DNA of 16,759 nt from a bacterium (GTDB taxonomy: Bacteria; SM23-81; DAOVCL01). A program made the position numbers and the translations under genes. Below, piece by piece: positions 1 to 5,243 of this stretch; position 1 is the first letter of the stretch; every line of letters begins with the position of its first letter. The notes below the pieces were generated by a model. That model was not told where the DNA came from and did not search any database. It saw nothing but the letters and a program-made list of their open reading frames with translations. The stretch lies in NCBI GenBank assembly GCA_029932675.1, contig JAOZPP010000077.1, positions 1-16,759 of the forward strand. Reading direction: 5' to 3'.

Positions 1-1
1 T

Positions 2-925
2 GACATTGCGGTGTATGAGTCTGGGCAGTCCTCTAAGCAGGTGTATATCTGTTGGGGGGACACCAGAGGTGAGCGTGAGGGGGTCTACTTTGCCAAATCC
101 TTGGATGGAGGGCAGACCTGGGGGAAGAATGTGCGAGTATCCTATAGTGATTATTGGGCCGAACATCCCCGGATGGCTGTAGACAGTGAGGGGGTGATCC
201 ATATTCTCTGTTCGGGGAGGAGGCCTGAGGGGCATATGAGTATCTTCTATGGCAAGTCCACTACTGAGGGGGATACCTGGAGATACAAGATGATCAGCGC
301 AGACACATTTGAGTTTCAGCATGATGTAGTCATCGCCGTAGATAGGTATGACAACATCTATGGGGTCTGGAAGGCCACACCGGAACTTCCTGGAAGCCAA
401 CTGGATTATCACATCTACTTTGCGATGACCCAGGACAAGTGGCACTGGAGTGACCCCATCAGGGTCGATGACAGCACGATAACATATGGTTTCTTGCCAT
501 ATATAGTGGTTGTTGATGACGGACGGATATATGTAGCGTGGGCTGGCCATGAGCAGTCTAGGCCAGGAGATAAATCTATCTTCTTCTCCTGGGCGCAGGG
601 GCCGGATTGGGTGGAGGAGAGGGGAGATGAGGTTTCCATCCCCCGGTTCAGGCTGGCTCAGAACTATCCCAACCCGTTTAATTCAAAAACAATTATCAAT
701 TATCAATTATCAATTATCAATTCTGCCCCTACCACCCTGAAGATCTACAACATCTTAGGAGAGGAGGTGAGGAGTTTAGTTAACCAGGAGCAAAGGGCGG
801 GGGAATATGAAGTGGTCTGGGATGGAAGGGACAGCAGGGGGAAGGAGATGAGTTCTGGGGTTTATCTCTGCTGTCTGAAGGTGGGGGGATGGGTGAAAAC
901 AAGAAAGCTGGTCCTATTGAGGTAA
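2..925 (+). CDS. Secreted Asp-box (BNR/sialidase-like) beta-propeller protein with T9SS sorting domain, 5'-truncated by window
   Basis: The reading frame is open from base 2, so the gene probably starts before the window and the GTG at 11 need not be its start. Counting from that GTG, residues 30-37 (SLDGGQTW) and 83-90 (STTEGDTW) are Asp-box motifs, SxDxGxTW, as in sialidase-like beta-propellers. They are separated by strands of the kind AVDSEGVIHIL and AVDRYDNIYGVW. From about residue 212 a T9SS C-terminal sorting domain begins with FRLAQNYPNPFN, has KIYNILGEEV near 244-253 and ends in the basic-hydrophobic KLVLLR. The protein is therefore likely exported and then anchored or released at the surface. 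Catalytic sialidase residues cannot be judged, because much of the propeller is missing. Residues 227-237 are encoded by a heptanucleotide tandem repeat (see the repeat entry). The next gene encodes another T9SS cargo. The fold and export route are well supported; the substrate is unknown. Confidence 0.8.
   Translation, partial: DIAVYESGQSSKQVYICWGDTRGEREGVYFAKSLDGGQTWGKNVRVSYSDYWAEHPRMAVDSEGVIHILCSGRRPEGHMSIFYGKSTTEGDTWRYKMISADTFEFQHDVVIAVDRYDNIYGVWKATPELPGSQLDYHIYFAMTQDKWHWSDPIRVDDSTITYGFLPYIVVVDDGRIYVAWAGHEQSRPGDKSIFFSWAQGPDWVEERGDEVSIPRFRLAQNYPNPFNSKTIINYQLSIINSAPTTLKIYNILGEEVRSLVNQEQRAGEYEVVWDGRDSRGKEMSSGVYLCCLKVGGWVKTRKLVLLR
691..722 (+). repeat. Perfect heptanucleotide tandem repeat inside a T9SS sorting domain
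   Basis: Four perfect copies of AATTATC plus a trailing AATT. The unit is 7 bp, so each copy shifts the frame by one, and three copies encode a seven-residue cycle, I-I-N-Y-Q-L-S. None of the three frames through the repeat contains a stop. It encodes the first beta-strand of the sorting domain; the neighbouring C25 protein has ITQINYALPE in the same place without any DNA repeat. Deleting one unit would give a TGA at 738-740, and adding one a TAA at 781-783. Both remove nearly all of the sorting domain. Confidence 0.9.
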
Positions 926-933
926 AGGAGGTG

Positions 934-1002
934 ATGCCCAAAAGATTATGCCGGGGAAAGCCAATAGAGGTTGTAAACCATAAACCAAAGGAGGAGAAAT
1001 GA
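934..1002 (+). CDS. Possible 22-codon leader ORF upstream of the C25 peptidase gene
   Basis: A short ORF starts at ATG 934, just after the stop of the upstream gene (923-925), and ends with TGA 1000-1002, which overlaps the ATG of the C25 gene (999-1001) as ATGA. The peptide starts MPKRLCRGKP and ends in a lysine/glutamate-rich KPKEEK. A near-perfect Shine-Dalgarno sequence, AAGGAGGTG, runs up to the ATG, but the spacer of about two bases is shorter than usual. The ATGA overlap could couple translation to the C25 gene, yet that gene also has its own strong ribosome binding site at 987-994. No homology or domain is recognisable. The SD-like sequence may be fortuitous in this purine-rich gap, so I give this low confidence. 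Confidence 0.17.
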   Translation: MPKRLCRGKPIEVVNHKPKEEK

Positions 1003-4000
1003 ATCGCTTAAGGGTGCTCTTCTTAGTGGCCCTTATAGCCTCAGTATCTGTCGGAGGGGCCAGGGCCAGCCTGGAGAGGGGATTCAGCTACTCCCCCTCT
1101 CAGCTAACCATAGTGGACTCCCTTGACTATAGTTACATTTCCTTAGCTGGCTGTGCACACATTGAGGAGCCGGGCCAGCCTGATCTGCCGGTAAAGGCCC
1201 TCAGCTATGCCATTCCCCTGGACAGGAGGGTGAGCGGCATCTCGGTTACGGTGGTTGATTCACAGCTCATTGGACTCTCCAAGCCGGTCTATCCCGGCCA
1301 ACTGCCCTATTTCTACTTAGCTGAGGACACCACCACCAGGGAGTTTATGGAGCCCGATTCCACCATCTACAGCTCCTCTGAGCTCTTTCCAGAGGTTCTG
1401 GCTACTGGTGGATATGAGGGCTACTTTGCGGGGTTAAAGATAGCCAACCTTCTGGTCTATCCGGTGCGGTATATCCCTGCGGCGGACACATTGATCCTCT
1501 ATACCAACTTCTCCATCTCCCTGCAGCTCGAGCCAACGGAGGACAACTCCCTGCATCCGGAGAAGAGGACAGCAGAGGGTCAACAGACTTATGAGAATTT
1601 GGCCAAGCTTCTGGTGGAAAACCCTGAAGATGTGGAGGGATACATCTATCGGCCACAGATAGTTGAGGACAGTAGCTTCGGCAGCTTAGGGGCGGTGACC
1701 TATCTTGTCATCACCGCCGACAGCCTCAAGTCCCAATTTCAGCCTCTGGCCGACTGGTATATCAGAAAAGGGATAAACACCCGGATACTTGGCCTGAGCG
1801 ACATCGAGGACAATTATTCCGGGGTTGACCTTCAAGAGAAGATACGCAACTGCATAAGGTTCTATTACGGTAAGCTTCAGACGGAGGCTGTGTTGCTGGG
1901 GGGAAGGCCGGAGATAGTGCCCCACAGGGAGTGGAACCGGAGCACCACTATGCAGTTTTTGGTTATGTGGGGCCTTAACCTCCCCACTCCCACCGATCTC
2001 TATTACTCGGCCCTGGATGGGAGCTGGGACCTGAACGGTAATGGGCTTTATGGGGACAGTTGCACCATAGAGACCCCCTGGGGAGGGATTGAGGAGAGCA
2101 AGCTTCTCGACTACTACGGAGAGGTCTGGGCCGGAAGGGTGCAGGTCTCCACCAGGGCTGAGGTGCAGACCTTCATCCAGAAGAGGTTGCGGTATGAGCA
2201 GGACCCACCGGTATATGACAATGGAACCGGTAAAGATTTCCTCTTCTTGGGGGCTGCTATAGATATTAAACCCCCAGAAGGAATTGTGGTGACATCCGGG
2301 GGGAAGATAAAGGAGGCCTCTGTCTCTGAGCTGGAGGAGGAGGTCAGCCGTTACAAGATGTATGATTACTATTATAGCGGGGAAATCAATGAGCTGATTT
2401 CGGCTTATGCGGCTGAGGAGAAGTTACAGGGTGGGTTCTATGGTATCAACCATGCCGGGCATGGCCACTGGGACTATATCGAGGTTAAACCAGATACGAG
2501 CCCTCATCCACAGAGGTTAACGATCGCTGACCTGGATGAGCTGACCAATGGCCCCAAGTATGGGGTCTTCTCCACCATCGCCTGTGTCAGTGCTGCCTTT
2601 GATACCACCAGCGACAAGTGCTTTGGGGAGCACTGGCTTTCCAATCCGAATGGAGGTGGTGTGGCCTTTGTAGGGCACAGCAGATATGGGGTTGGACTTG
2701 GAGGATACGCTGATACCCTGGATAAGAAGTATATGAAGTATCTCTTTGAGGGCTGGCCGGATCATCCATATCCTGTGCCAAGAAGGATTCACGGTATTGG
2801 GGGAATATATGGGATGGCCAAAAATGAGTATATCACCCGGCTGCCCAAGCCTTGGCAGGGTCTTCATAGCATGTTTTGGAACGATTACATATACGAGGTG
2901 TGCAATTGGACCTTGCTTGGGGATCCCGCTATGCCCGTCTGGACATCTCCTCCCGGAAGCCTGCAGGTCTCCCACCCCCTTTACACCTTCACACAGGAAT
3001 GTTCTTTCCCCGTGAATGTTTCCTCTGATGGGAGTCCGGTCTCGGGTGCCTGGGTCTATCTCTATAAAGATGAGGACATATACTCCAAGGCCCCGACCGA
3101 TAGCTCAGGGGATGTAAACTTCATAATTCACCCCCAATCCCCTGGTAGCCTTTATGTGACGGTGACCAAGACAAATAGGTACATCCCAGAGTACATCCCT
3201 TATCAGGGTAAGGCTACTGTTTTCCAGGATTGGAGTGGGGAACTTCTTATCTGCGGCGATGTCACGGTGGACAGTGGGGTGACCTTAACCGTTCAGCCAA
3301 ACACTACGGTTAAATTCGCCTCAGGAGCCAAACTAACCGTAGAGGGCGCTCTCGTTGCTCAGGGAACGGCTGATTCAAAGATAACATTTACTGCAGTAGA
3401 CACTTCACATAGATGGTATGGCATAGAGTTCATCGGCGAGAGTGACGACAGCAGTTGTGTGCTTAAACACTGCGTTATTGAGTGGGCCAGCATTGGCGTC
3501 TGGTGCAATAATGCCTCTCCTACATTAGAGCATAGCCTGATCCAATATTGCTCGGTGGCTGGTATTCAATGTGACCAAGCAAGCCCTGTTATCTCTAATA
3601 ACACCGTAAAGTTTTGCCTGGACGGAGCCGAGTTCTACTCCTCAAACCCTGTACTTAAAGGGAACTGCTTCATCGACAACGAGGGAATTGGCCTCCTTCT
3701 TTTTAACTCCTGCAGCAATACTGACATTATCCAGGACAACTATTTTAACGACAACGACTTTTACGGAATGTGGTTAGAAGGTCACTCTAAGCCGACAATA
3801 TCCCGCTGTGAGGTAAAGCACAACCATAGTATTGGGGTTTTCTGTTATGACCACAGTTCTCCTACCATAGACCATTGTCTTATTTTGAGCAATGGTGGAA
3901 CTGGGATTTATTGCAGCCAACACAGTTCTCCCATTTGTTGTTACATCCCTCGTGCAGGTGGCTATCCCGAGGGAGGATACAATCAGATCATCGACAATGG

Positions 4001-5105
4001 TGGCAGTGGTGTTTACGCCTGTTCTAGCTCCTACCCTTATCTGGGCCTTTCTGGCAAGCTTTATCCTCACCCTTATCCAGGGTATAACTCCATATACGCC
4101 AACGCAGTATATCAAGTGTCAAATGGCAACTCCTCTGGGTGGATTAGGGCCCAACTCAACTTTTGGGGTTATCCCCTTTCCCAACACCCCGACTCATCTG
4201 ACTTCTCCGGACTGGTGGTATGGGAGCCATATCTCACCAGTGATCCCAATGGACCTCCTCCTGTTCCCAGCCCCTTGAGTGAGGGAGATTGGACCTCTCC
4301 TGATGCTACCGATCCTGCACAGGATTTAACCCAGACAGCAGAGGGATACCAGACTCAGGGGCTGTATGAGGAGGCCATTGCGGCCTATGAACAAGTTGTC
4401 TCCAACTATCCAGCTTCCAGACAGGCCCACTGGGCCCTTGATCGGATTATACTTTGCTATCAAAATTTGGATAGAGAAGCTGAGATTGTCCCCTATCTGG
4501 AGAAGGTAGCTGCGGAGTGTGCAGACACTGGTCTGAAGGGGTTTGCTCTGGAGCAGTCGGTCTATTTCTTAGAGAGGAGAGGCGAATACGGCAAGGCACT
4601 TATCAGGTGTAATTATCTGATGGGAAACTATGAGGGGAGCACGATGCGGGAGAACCTGCTTTTCCAGAAGGGACTCATTTACAGATATGGGCTCAGAGAC
4701 AAGGGCAAAGCCGAGGAAGTCTTCACCCAATTCCTCAAGGATTATCCGAATAGCATTCGTGTGCCTATCGTCCAGATTATGTTAGGGCAGTCGGTGTCAC
4801 CTCCCCTTCCTAAGCAGACAACAGAGAAAGTCAAGCTTCCAATGGAATTTTCTCTTGCCCAGAACTATCCTAATCCATTTAATCCGATTACTCAGATCAA
4901 CTATGCTCTGCCTGAGGACTGTTGGGTAAAGCTGGAAGTCTTTAACATCTTAGGCCGGAAGATAGCCACCTTAGTTGATGGGGAGCAGAAGGCCGGCTAT
5001 AAGACGGTGAGTTGGGATGCCAGCCAGATGGCCAGTGGGATCTACTTCTACCGACTTAAGGCGGGGGGTTATATAAGGGCAAAGAAGATGATCCTGCTCA
5101 AGTAA
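999..5105 (+). CDS. Secreted gingipain-like (family C25) cysteine peptidase with beta-helix, TPR-like region and T9SS sorting domain
   Basis: This is a 1368-residue multidomain protein starting at ATG 999 behind AAAGGAGG (987-994). Residues 1-23 form a signal peptide with a likely ARA/S cleavage site. Residues 30-200 resemble a C25 propeptide. The peptidase domain spans about 230-650: TYLVITADSL at 234-243, then the predicted catalytic His488 in NHAGHGH and Cys529 in TIACVSAAF, with GGGVAFVGHSRYG and NWTLLGDPAMPVW closing the domain as in family C25. A linker or Ig-like segment follows (about 655-735). Residues about 740-1085 form a cysteine-rich parallel beta-helix with repeated SPxI-type coils. 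Residues about 1112-1262 hold TPR-like helices. The T9SS sorting domain occupies 1283-1368 (AQNYPNPFNP, VFNILGRKI, tail KKMILLK). Expected role: an exported surface or secreted protease. Specificity is not deducible. It lies directly before the dcw cluster but has no evident functional link to it. Confidence 0.9.
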   Translation: MNRLRVLFLVALIASVSVGGARASLERGFSYSPSQLTIVDSLDYSYISLAGCAHIEEPGQPDLPVKALSYAIPLDRRVSGISVTVVDSQLIGLSKPVYPGQLPYFYLAEDTTTREFMEPDSTIYSSSELFPEVLATGGYEGYFAGLKIANLLVYPVRYIPAADTLILYTNFSISLQLEPTEDNSLHPEKRTAEGQQTYENLAKLLVENPEDVEGYIYRPQIVEDSSFGSLGAVTYLVITADSLKSQFQPLADWYIRKGINTRILGLSDIEDNYSGVDLQEKIRNCIRFYYGKLQTEAVLLGGRPEIVPHREWNRSTTMQFLVMWGLNLPTPTDLYYSALDGSWDLNGNGLYGDSCTIETPWGGIEESKLLDYYGEVWAGRVQVSTRAEVQTFIQKRLRYEQDPPVYDNGTGKDFLFLGAAIDIKPPEGIVVTSGGKIKEASVSELEEEVSRYKMYDYYYSGEINELISAYAAEEKLQGGFYGINHAGHGHWDYIEVKPDTSPHPQRLTIADLDELTNGPKYGVFSTIACVSAAFDTTSDKCFGEHWLSNPNGGGVAFVGHSRYGVGLGGYADTLDKKYMKYLFEGWPDHPYPVPRRIHGIGGIYGMAKNEYITRLPKPWQGLHSMFWNDYIYEVCNWTLLGDPAMPVWTSPPGSLQVSHPLYTFTQECSFPVNVSSDGSPVSGAWVYLYKDEDIYSKAPTDSSGDVNFIIHPQSPGSLYVTVTKTNRYIPEYIPYQGKATVFQDWSGELLICGDVTVDSGVTLTVQPNTTVKFASGAKLTVEGALVAQGTADSKITFTAVDTSHRWYGIEFIGESDDSSCVLKHCVIEWASIGVWCNNASPTLEHSLIQYCSVAGIQCDQASPVISNNTVKFCLDGAEFYSSNPVLKGNCFIDNEGIGLLLFNSCSNTDIIQDNYFNDNDFYGMWLEGHSKPTISRCEVKHNHSIGVFCYDHSSPTIDHCLILSNGGTGIYCSQHSSPICCYIPRAGGYPEGGYNQIIDNGGSGVYACSSSYPYLGLSGKLYPHPYPGYNSIYANAVYQVSNGNSSGWIRAQLNFWGYPLSQHPDSSDFSGLVVWEPYLTSDPNGPPPVPSPLSEGDWTSPDATDPAQDLTQTAEGYQTQGLYEEAIAAYEQVVSNYPASRQAHWALDRIILCYQNLDREAEIVPYLEKVAAECADTGLKGFALEQSVYFLERRGEYGKALIRCNYLMGNYEGSTMRENLLFQKGLIYRYGLRDKGKAEEVFTQFLKDYPNSIRVPIVQIMLGQSVSPPLPKQTTEKVKLPMEFSLAQNYPNPFNPITQINYALPEDCWVKLEVFNILGRKIATLVDGEQKAGYKTVSWDASQMASGIYFYRLKAGGYIRAKKMILLK

Positions 5106-5196
5106 ATAGCATGAAAAATGGTACAGCTCATAGGGAACGGGGACAGGAAAATTTCGTGACAATTGGCAATCGACAACTGTGGAATACCTGTCTGCT

Positions 5197-5222
5197 GGTC
5201 TCTGACCGCTGAGAGTTAGACC
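5197..5222 (+). other. Bulged hairpin in the C25-mraY intergenic gap
   Basis: GGTCT (5197-5201) pairs with AGACC (5218-5222), and two more pairs form across a two-base bulge, leaving a loop of about ten bases. No T-run follows, so this is not a convincing intrinsic terminator. It lies 21 bases before the mraY start and could be part of an mRNA leader. I could identify no clear promoter in the 138-base gap. The hairpin may be chance. Confidence 0.2.
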
Positions 5223-5243
5223 AAATCTCAAACCAAGGAACAG

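Follow-up and report, generated by a model that had tools for sequence, protein, structure and literature searches.

The heptamer array and its gene

The window, the whole 16,759-nucleotide stretch that we analysed, constitutes contig C71 of a draft genome and opens with the 3′ part of a gene for a secreted protein that ends in a T9SS sorting domain (CTD). The open frame (positions 2–925, plus strand; 307 amino acids) is truncated at its 5′ end because the window is the entire contig. Its sorting domain, which runs from NYPNPFN to VLLR (662–922, plus strand), matched the CTD profile of the genus over positions 1–87 (E = 6.8e-43), and the C-terminal region of the frame scored 28.6 bits against PF18962 (Por_Secre_tail), above the cut-off of 27. 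The same region also matched FlgD_ig (40.4 bits) and, below the cut-off, CHU_C. T9SS machinery is encoded in the same genome, with SprA_N on contig C25 (129 bits) and PorV above the cut-off on contigs C55 and C44. The initial annotation had called the N-terminal part of the protein a beta-propeller; this label is plausible, as an Asp-box-like motif (SLDGGQTW) is present there, although no Pfam propeller family matched. The neighbouring gene, for a C25 protease, carries a plain sorting domain without a heptamer tract (4863–5102, plus strand), which served as an internal control.

We confirmed that four perfect AATTATC units followed by AATT (691–722) lie in frame within the sorting domain, in the last 87 codons of the frame. 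The perfectly 7-periodic tract spans 690–722 (plus strand), or 33 bp and 11 codons. Even two AATTATC units had an expected count of 0 in shuffled windows, no 7-periodic run in 200 third-order Markov windows exceeded 19 bp, and the tract is also the longest 7-periodic run in a 1.09-Mb sample of its own genome. Translation bore out that the unit encodes the cycle I-I-N-Y-Q-L-S whatever the frame. On the basis of the conserved TxIxYxL motif, we place the array in the putative first strand of the CTD; an AlphaFold model of the domain made without an alignment reached a pLDDT of 46 and was left unused. Loss of one unit brings a TGA at 738–740 into frame and gain of one unit a TAA at 781–783 (both plus strand), exactly as the initial annotation had predicted, and a one-unit change in either direction is therefore predicted to truncate the product, whereas losing or gaining three units keeps the frame. 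As in the contingency (phase-variable) loci of coding sequences, the repeat is uninterrupted, lies in coding DNA and has a unit length that three does not divide.

The surroundings of the gene also differ from those in a sister species, in which mraY lies directly 3′ of murF (L166). In the genome of the window, murF is found near the end of contig C102 (L170, 16952–19188) and is followed by a T9SS gene resembling that of the window, and mraY is on C71, preceded by the window gene and the C25 protease gene (window 1–5243). There seems to be an island of secreted-protein genes inside a division and cell-wall cluster. The gap between murF and mraY in the sister species (L166, 7495–7614, on its contig C34) consists largely of heptamer arrays with AAAGNCG and TTTTCNA units. 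At the other end of the window, a partial DDE transposase gene (PF13751; 15971–16474) lies close to the 3′ end of the contig.

Heptamer tracts across sorting domains

The initial annotation had suggested looking for AATTATC repeats in other sorting domains of the genome. This particular unit did not recur as an array: a search of the whole 3.03-Mb genome for AATTATCAATTATC found no second locus, and the array was absent from three other genomes of the phylum. In public genomes, at least 113 stretches carry four or more AATTATC units, mostly in cyanobacteria and Bacteroidota. These arrays commonly measure about 33–35 bp, and most fall beyond open frames or at their margins; none of the loci that we fetched had a sorting domain at the array. 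Thus, the unit belongs to a known class of heptameric tandem repeats, but its position here does not. Some public arrays are in frame: one in a protein that by eye resembles an NAD-dependent DNA ligase (Patescibacteria; L056) and one in a protein of two viral contigs (L150 and L158), each encoding QLSIINYQLSI.

By contrast, heptamer-periodic tracts as a class are strongly concentrated in sorting domains, a pattern that the initial annotation had named as support for its reading. We compared four genomes of the phylum, namely that of the window (G000), that of the sister species (G001) and two of another family (G002 and G003); CTDs number about 150 per genome. A lag scan of DNA from the window's own genome yielded numerous tracts at a lag of 7 but few at any other. 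In the 1.09-Mb sample, which was chosen to be rich in CTDs, 55 of 65 heptamer-periodic tracts lie inside CTDs, although CTDs make up 3% of the bases of that same sample. Most of the CTD tracts are degenerate. In a codon-shuffle control, 34 of 75 CTDs of this genome scored at least 13, compared with 0.6% of the shuffles; the corresponding counts were 14 of 32 in the sister species and 0 of 14 and 0 of 24 in the other family. In a fuller set, a tract occupies the strand-1 site in 44 of 116 CTDs of G000 and 19 of 55 of G001, so that in about one-third of the CTDs of the genus, strand 1 and the loop after it hold a 7-bp-periodic tract. No such tract was found in 38 CTDs of G002 and G003 or in 42 CTDs of other T9SS genomes; G002 and G003 do contain heptamer tracts, but outside CTDs. 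In the intergenic DNA of these two genomes there are long, degenerate mosaics built from several heptamer families, some arranged as inverted pairs (L228, 523–612; L238, 160–290; L244, 8448–8596; L232, 4917–4986).

At the strand-1 site, the tracts fall into several families: A (AATTATT, AATTATG and AATTRAG), B (CAGCTAT, CAGTTAT and CAGCGGT), C (TCGTTAC and TCGTAGA) and F (GTCCGCC and GTCGGCC). The window array occupies the family A position. Division of the tracts into 7-bp units places every family in a single register, and all keep I-x-Y-x-L; examples of the encoded peptides are TIINYQLSIINSAP and AISYQLSAV... A second tract site, with AGGTNNN or AAAGCNG units, is the last hairpin of the CTD, and tracts at the two sites tend to co-occur (Fisher P = 4e-6 in G000 and 0.015 in G001). 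Long TCGTNNN cassettes hold an inverted ACGANNN array (L170, 19047–19188; L179, 7–120 and 5798–5918; L195, minus strand, 773–893), and a hairpin is thereby encoded within the sorting domain. We considered whether the tracts are generally tied to inverted partners, as hairpin elements would be, and rejected this, as it is true only of these few long cassettes and of some intergenic arrays.

Apparent replacement of cassettes between genes and species

Orthologues of the two sister species whose bodies are 65–72% identical often carry tracts of different families (A versus F, B versus F or C versus F). In most such pairs, DNA identity in the 48-bp bin that contains the tract falls to 36–47% (57–65% in a few), whereas the flanks are around 70–90% identical, higher than the tract on both sides. 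Orthologue pairs with plain CTDs show no dip at this position. Conversely, unrelated genes of the two species share a cassette that is identical over 52 bp, whereas their cores are only 59% identical. In family A, the tracts are more alike than the cores (87% versus 69%), as they are in family F (84% versus 66%), but the tracts of families B and C are no more alike than their cores. We mapped the family labels onto a tree of the cores, which has about 200 bp per sequence and is weakly resolved, and counted 17 changes; shuffled labels gave a mean of 24 and a minimum of 20. This suggests that descent with the domain accounts for part of the distribution of cassettes and exchange for the rest.

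The clearest case of apparent replacement involves the window gene itself. Positions 581–681 (plus strand; 101 bp) are identical to the paralogue at the end of contig C102, downstream of murF, and identity drops to 34.6% over 682–740, starting at the residue after NPFN. This corresponds to the segment that is swapped in paralogues and orthologues (682–738, plus strand), which covers strand 1 and the loop and begins right after the NPFN codons. In place of AATTATC units, the paralogue has a TCGTNNN cassette with an inverted arm. The paralogous gene is damaged (L170, 18484–18839): it has a premature TGA and has apparently lost an internal part.

In summary, the tracts have a 7-bp periodicity in the DNA and one register, and they form several related families. 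Almost every gene has its frame preserved, and the tract varies among orthologues and paralogues even though the flanks are conserved. One explanation, which we consider probable, is that the window array belongs to a genus-specific collection of heptamer cassettes, made by slippage, spread by short-patch recombination and held in frame by selection. New units would arise by heptamer slippage, and whole cassettes would then be copied among the approximately 150 paralogous CTDs by short-patch recombination, for which the conserved NPFN and LKVYNILGQEV stretches may provide the homology. Copies that break the frame would be purged, with selection for the frame and for the I-x-Y-x-L strand, and the cassettes would reside in hairpins that tolerate them, within a domain present in many copies. 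We infer gene conversion from these patterns, and some of the apparent replacements might instead reflect separate re-expansions from compatible seeds; the tracts of families B and C and the shallower dips of 57–65% count against exchange.

It is also possible, though unlikely, that no exchange took place and that each gene expanded its own tract into the tolerant loop from codons for I-x-Y-x-L that already contain a 7-bp near-repeat (ATC AGC TAT CAG TTA, ATT CGT TAC TCG TTA or ATT ATC AAT TAT CAA TTA). The motif and register common to every family fit such seeding, as do the plain CTDs, which lack a tract and mostly have a shorter, 19-residue spacing. However, independent expansion does not readily account for identities of 52–101 bp between genes with different cores or tracts, for similar heptamers in intergenic DNA that lacks the motif, or for other T9SS genomes that have the domain but no tracts.

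Unit number, frame and relation to known repeats

The initial annotation had read the array as a phase-variation switch, in which slippage of AATTATC would toggle the sorting signal. This interpretation is partly supported. The perfection and record length of the tract favour it, as do the concentration of tracts in CTDs and the stops that fall where a unit change predicts them, and slippage at the window would be expected to truncate the sorting domain. Unit loss also seems to occur in nature: of the CTDs in the sister species, 58 are intact and four carry a frameshift. In two of these four the shift lies precisely at the tract, where 67 bp remain instead of 81, that is, two units fewer (−14 bp) with loss of frame. 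Such losses break the sorting frame but are rare. One lies in an otherwise open gene (contig C96), but the CTD of the other (C183) has decayed further. In the window's own sample, none of 116 CTDs is out of frame. The number of units is four in 11 of 11 family A CTDs, although their unit sequences differ, and the distance from NYPNPFN to the core is 78 bp in 10 of 10 family A CTDs; it is 75 bp in the window because there is one codon fewer after the array. The distance is 75 or 81 bp in family B and 81 bp in 10 of 10 family F CTDs. A few long compound forms reach 99–120 bp, so longer loops are tolerated, but we saw no in-frame alleles that differ by three units (21 bp) within a family, and relatives differ mainly by replacement of the whole tract with another family. 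An array of only four units and a predominance of degenerate tracts, which should damp slippage, also speak against switching. The spacers in other family A cassettes are ATT, ATG, RAG and AAG but all are ATC in the window, which looks like a recently homogenised four-unit cassette of an AATTNNN family; the unit turnover that this implies is the best remaining argument for slippage here. Regulated or frequent switching is conceivable, but a switch strikes us as a distinctly unlikely account of the array, which resembles a rapidly evolving DNA cassette more than a dedicated on/off device.

We give slightly less credence still to mobile, STRR-like heptamer elements that inserted in a transposition-like manner and were tolerated in the loop. 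Across many phyla, heptamer arrays are dispersed and mostly extragenic; intergenic arrays also occur in this phylum, and some form inverted pairs, as such elements might. However, cassette segments differ from plain CTDs by 6–12 bp rather than by one array length, and removing the 33 bp deletes the strand itself; the window array is thus not a clean insertion into an intact domain, a possibility that we ruled out. Finally, an assembly artefact is scarcely credible: the window is an entire contig of a 116-contig draft, but a 33-bp tract is much shorter than a read, the frame stays open and similar tracts occur in two separately assembled species.

Heptamer repeats are known from several bacteria. 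TAACTGA direct repeats of Beggiatoaceae, cyanobacteria and Bacteroidetes are perfect and mostly intergenic, upstream of starts, with coding cases mainly at protein ends (MacGregor 2015, PMC4679880). They share the 7-nucleotide unit and short arrays with the tracts described here, and the other strand of TAACTGA, TCAGTTA, is a member of family B and encodes the LSVISYQ cycle that was reported there (PMC4679880); by contrast, the present tracts are degenerate, belong to several families and lie in frame inside one protein domain. Work on STRR/LSSR repeats identifies heptamers as the over-represented repeat length in many bacteria; in cyanobacteria, Xanthomonas and Nostoc, such repeats are scattered across the genome, are under-represented on coding strands and typically have about four units with some fixed and some variable positions (PMC4692102 and the work it cites). 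Here, too, units combine fixed and variable positions, and tandem 7-nucleotide units occur well above chance. Dispersal over the genome holds only for the wider heptamer class and not for AATTATC, and the sampled tracts are mainly in sorting domains rather than intergenic. In Haemophilus influenzae, the promoters of hmw1a and hmw2a carry heptanucleotide repeats whose copy number varies among strains, with 13–38 copies in the strains quoted (PMC2651432). The 7-bp unit could in principle slip in both cases, but here four units lie in coding DNA and their number is constant across family A. Porphyromonas gingivalis diversifies its T9SS-secreted surface proteins by allelic exchange, with variation in adhesin or catalytic domains (PMC5266723); T9SS cargo would be diversified by recombination here as well, but through a cassette of about 50 bp within the sorting domain. 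Among the papers that we searched, none connects the sorting domains of the T9SS with tandem repeats or with phase variation.

We can only tentatively suggest, as an improbable extension, that the genus diversifies and occasionally silences the sorting hairpins of about 150 surface proteins by exchanging or shortening heptamer cassettes, giving lineage-specific variation in secretion or anchoring. In many bacteria, no long simple repeats are commoner than heptamers, and how these arise and spread calls for explanation. With about 150 copies per genome, a fixed tract site, several families and a frame that reports unit changes, the sorting domains offer a natural experiment in the birth, exchange and purging of repeats. 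Caution is also called for, as a single perfect repeat in such a domain should not be read as a switch. These data suggest that T9SS sorting signals can be remodelled at the DNA level faster than the proteins that they export.
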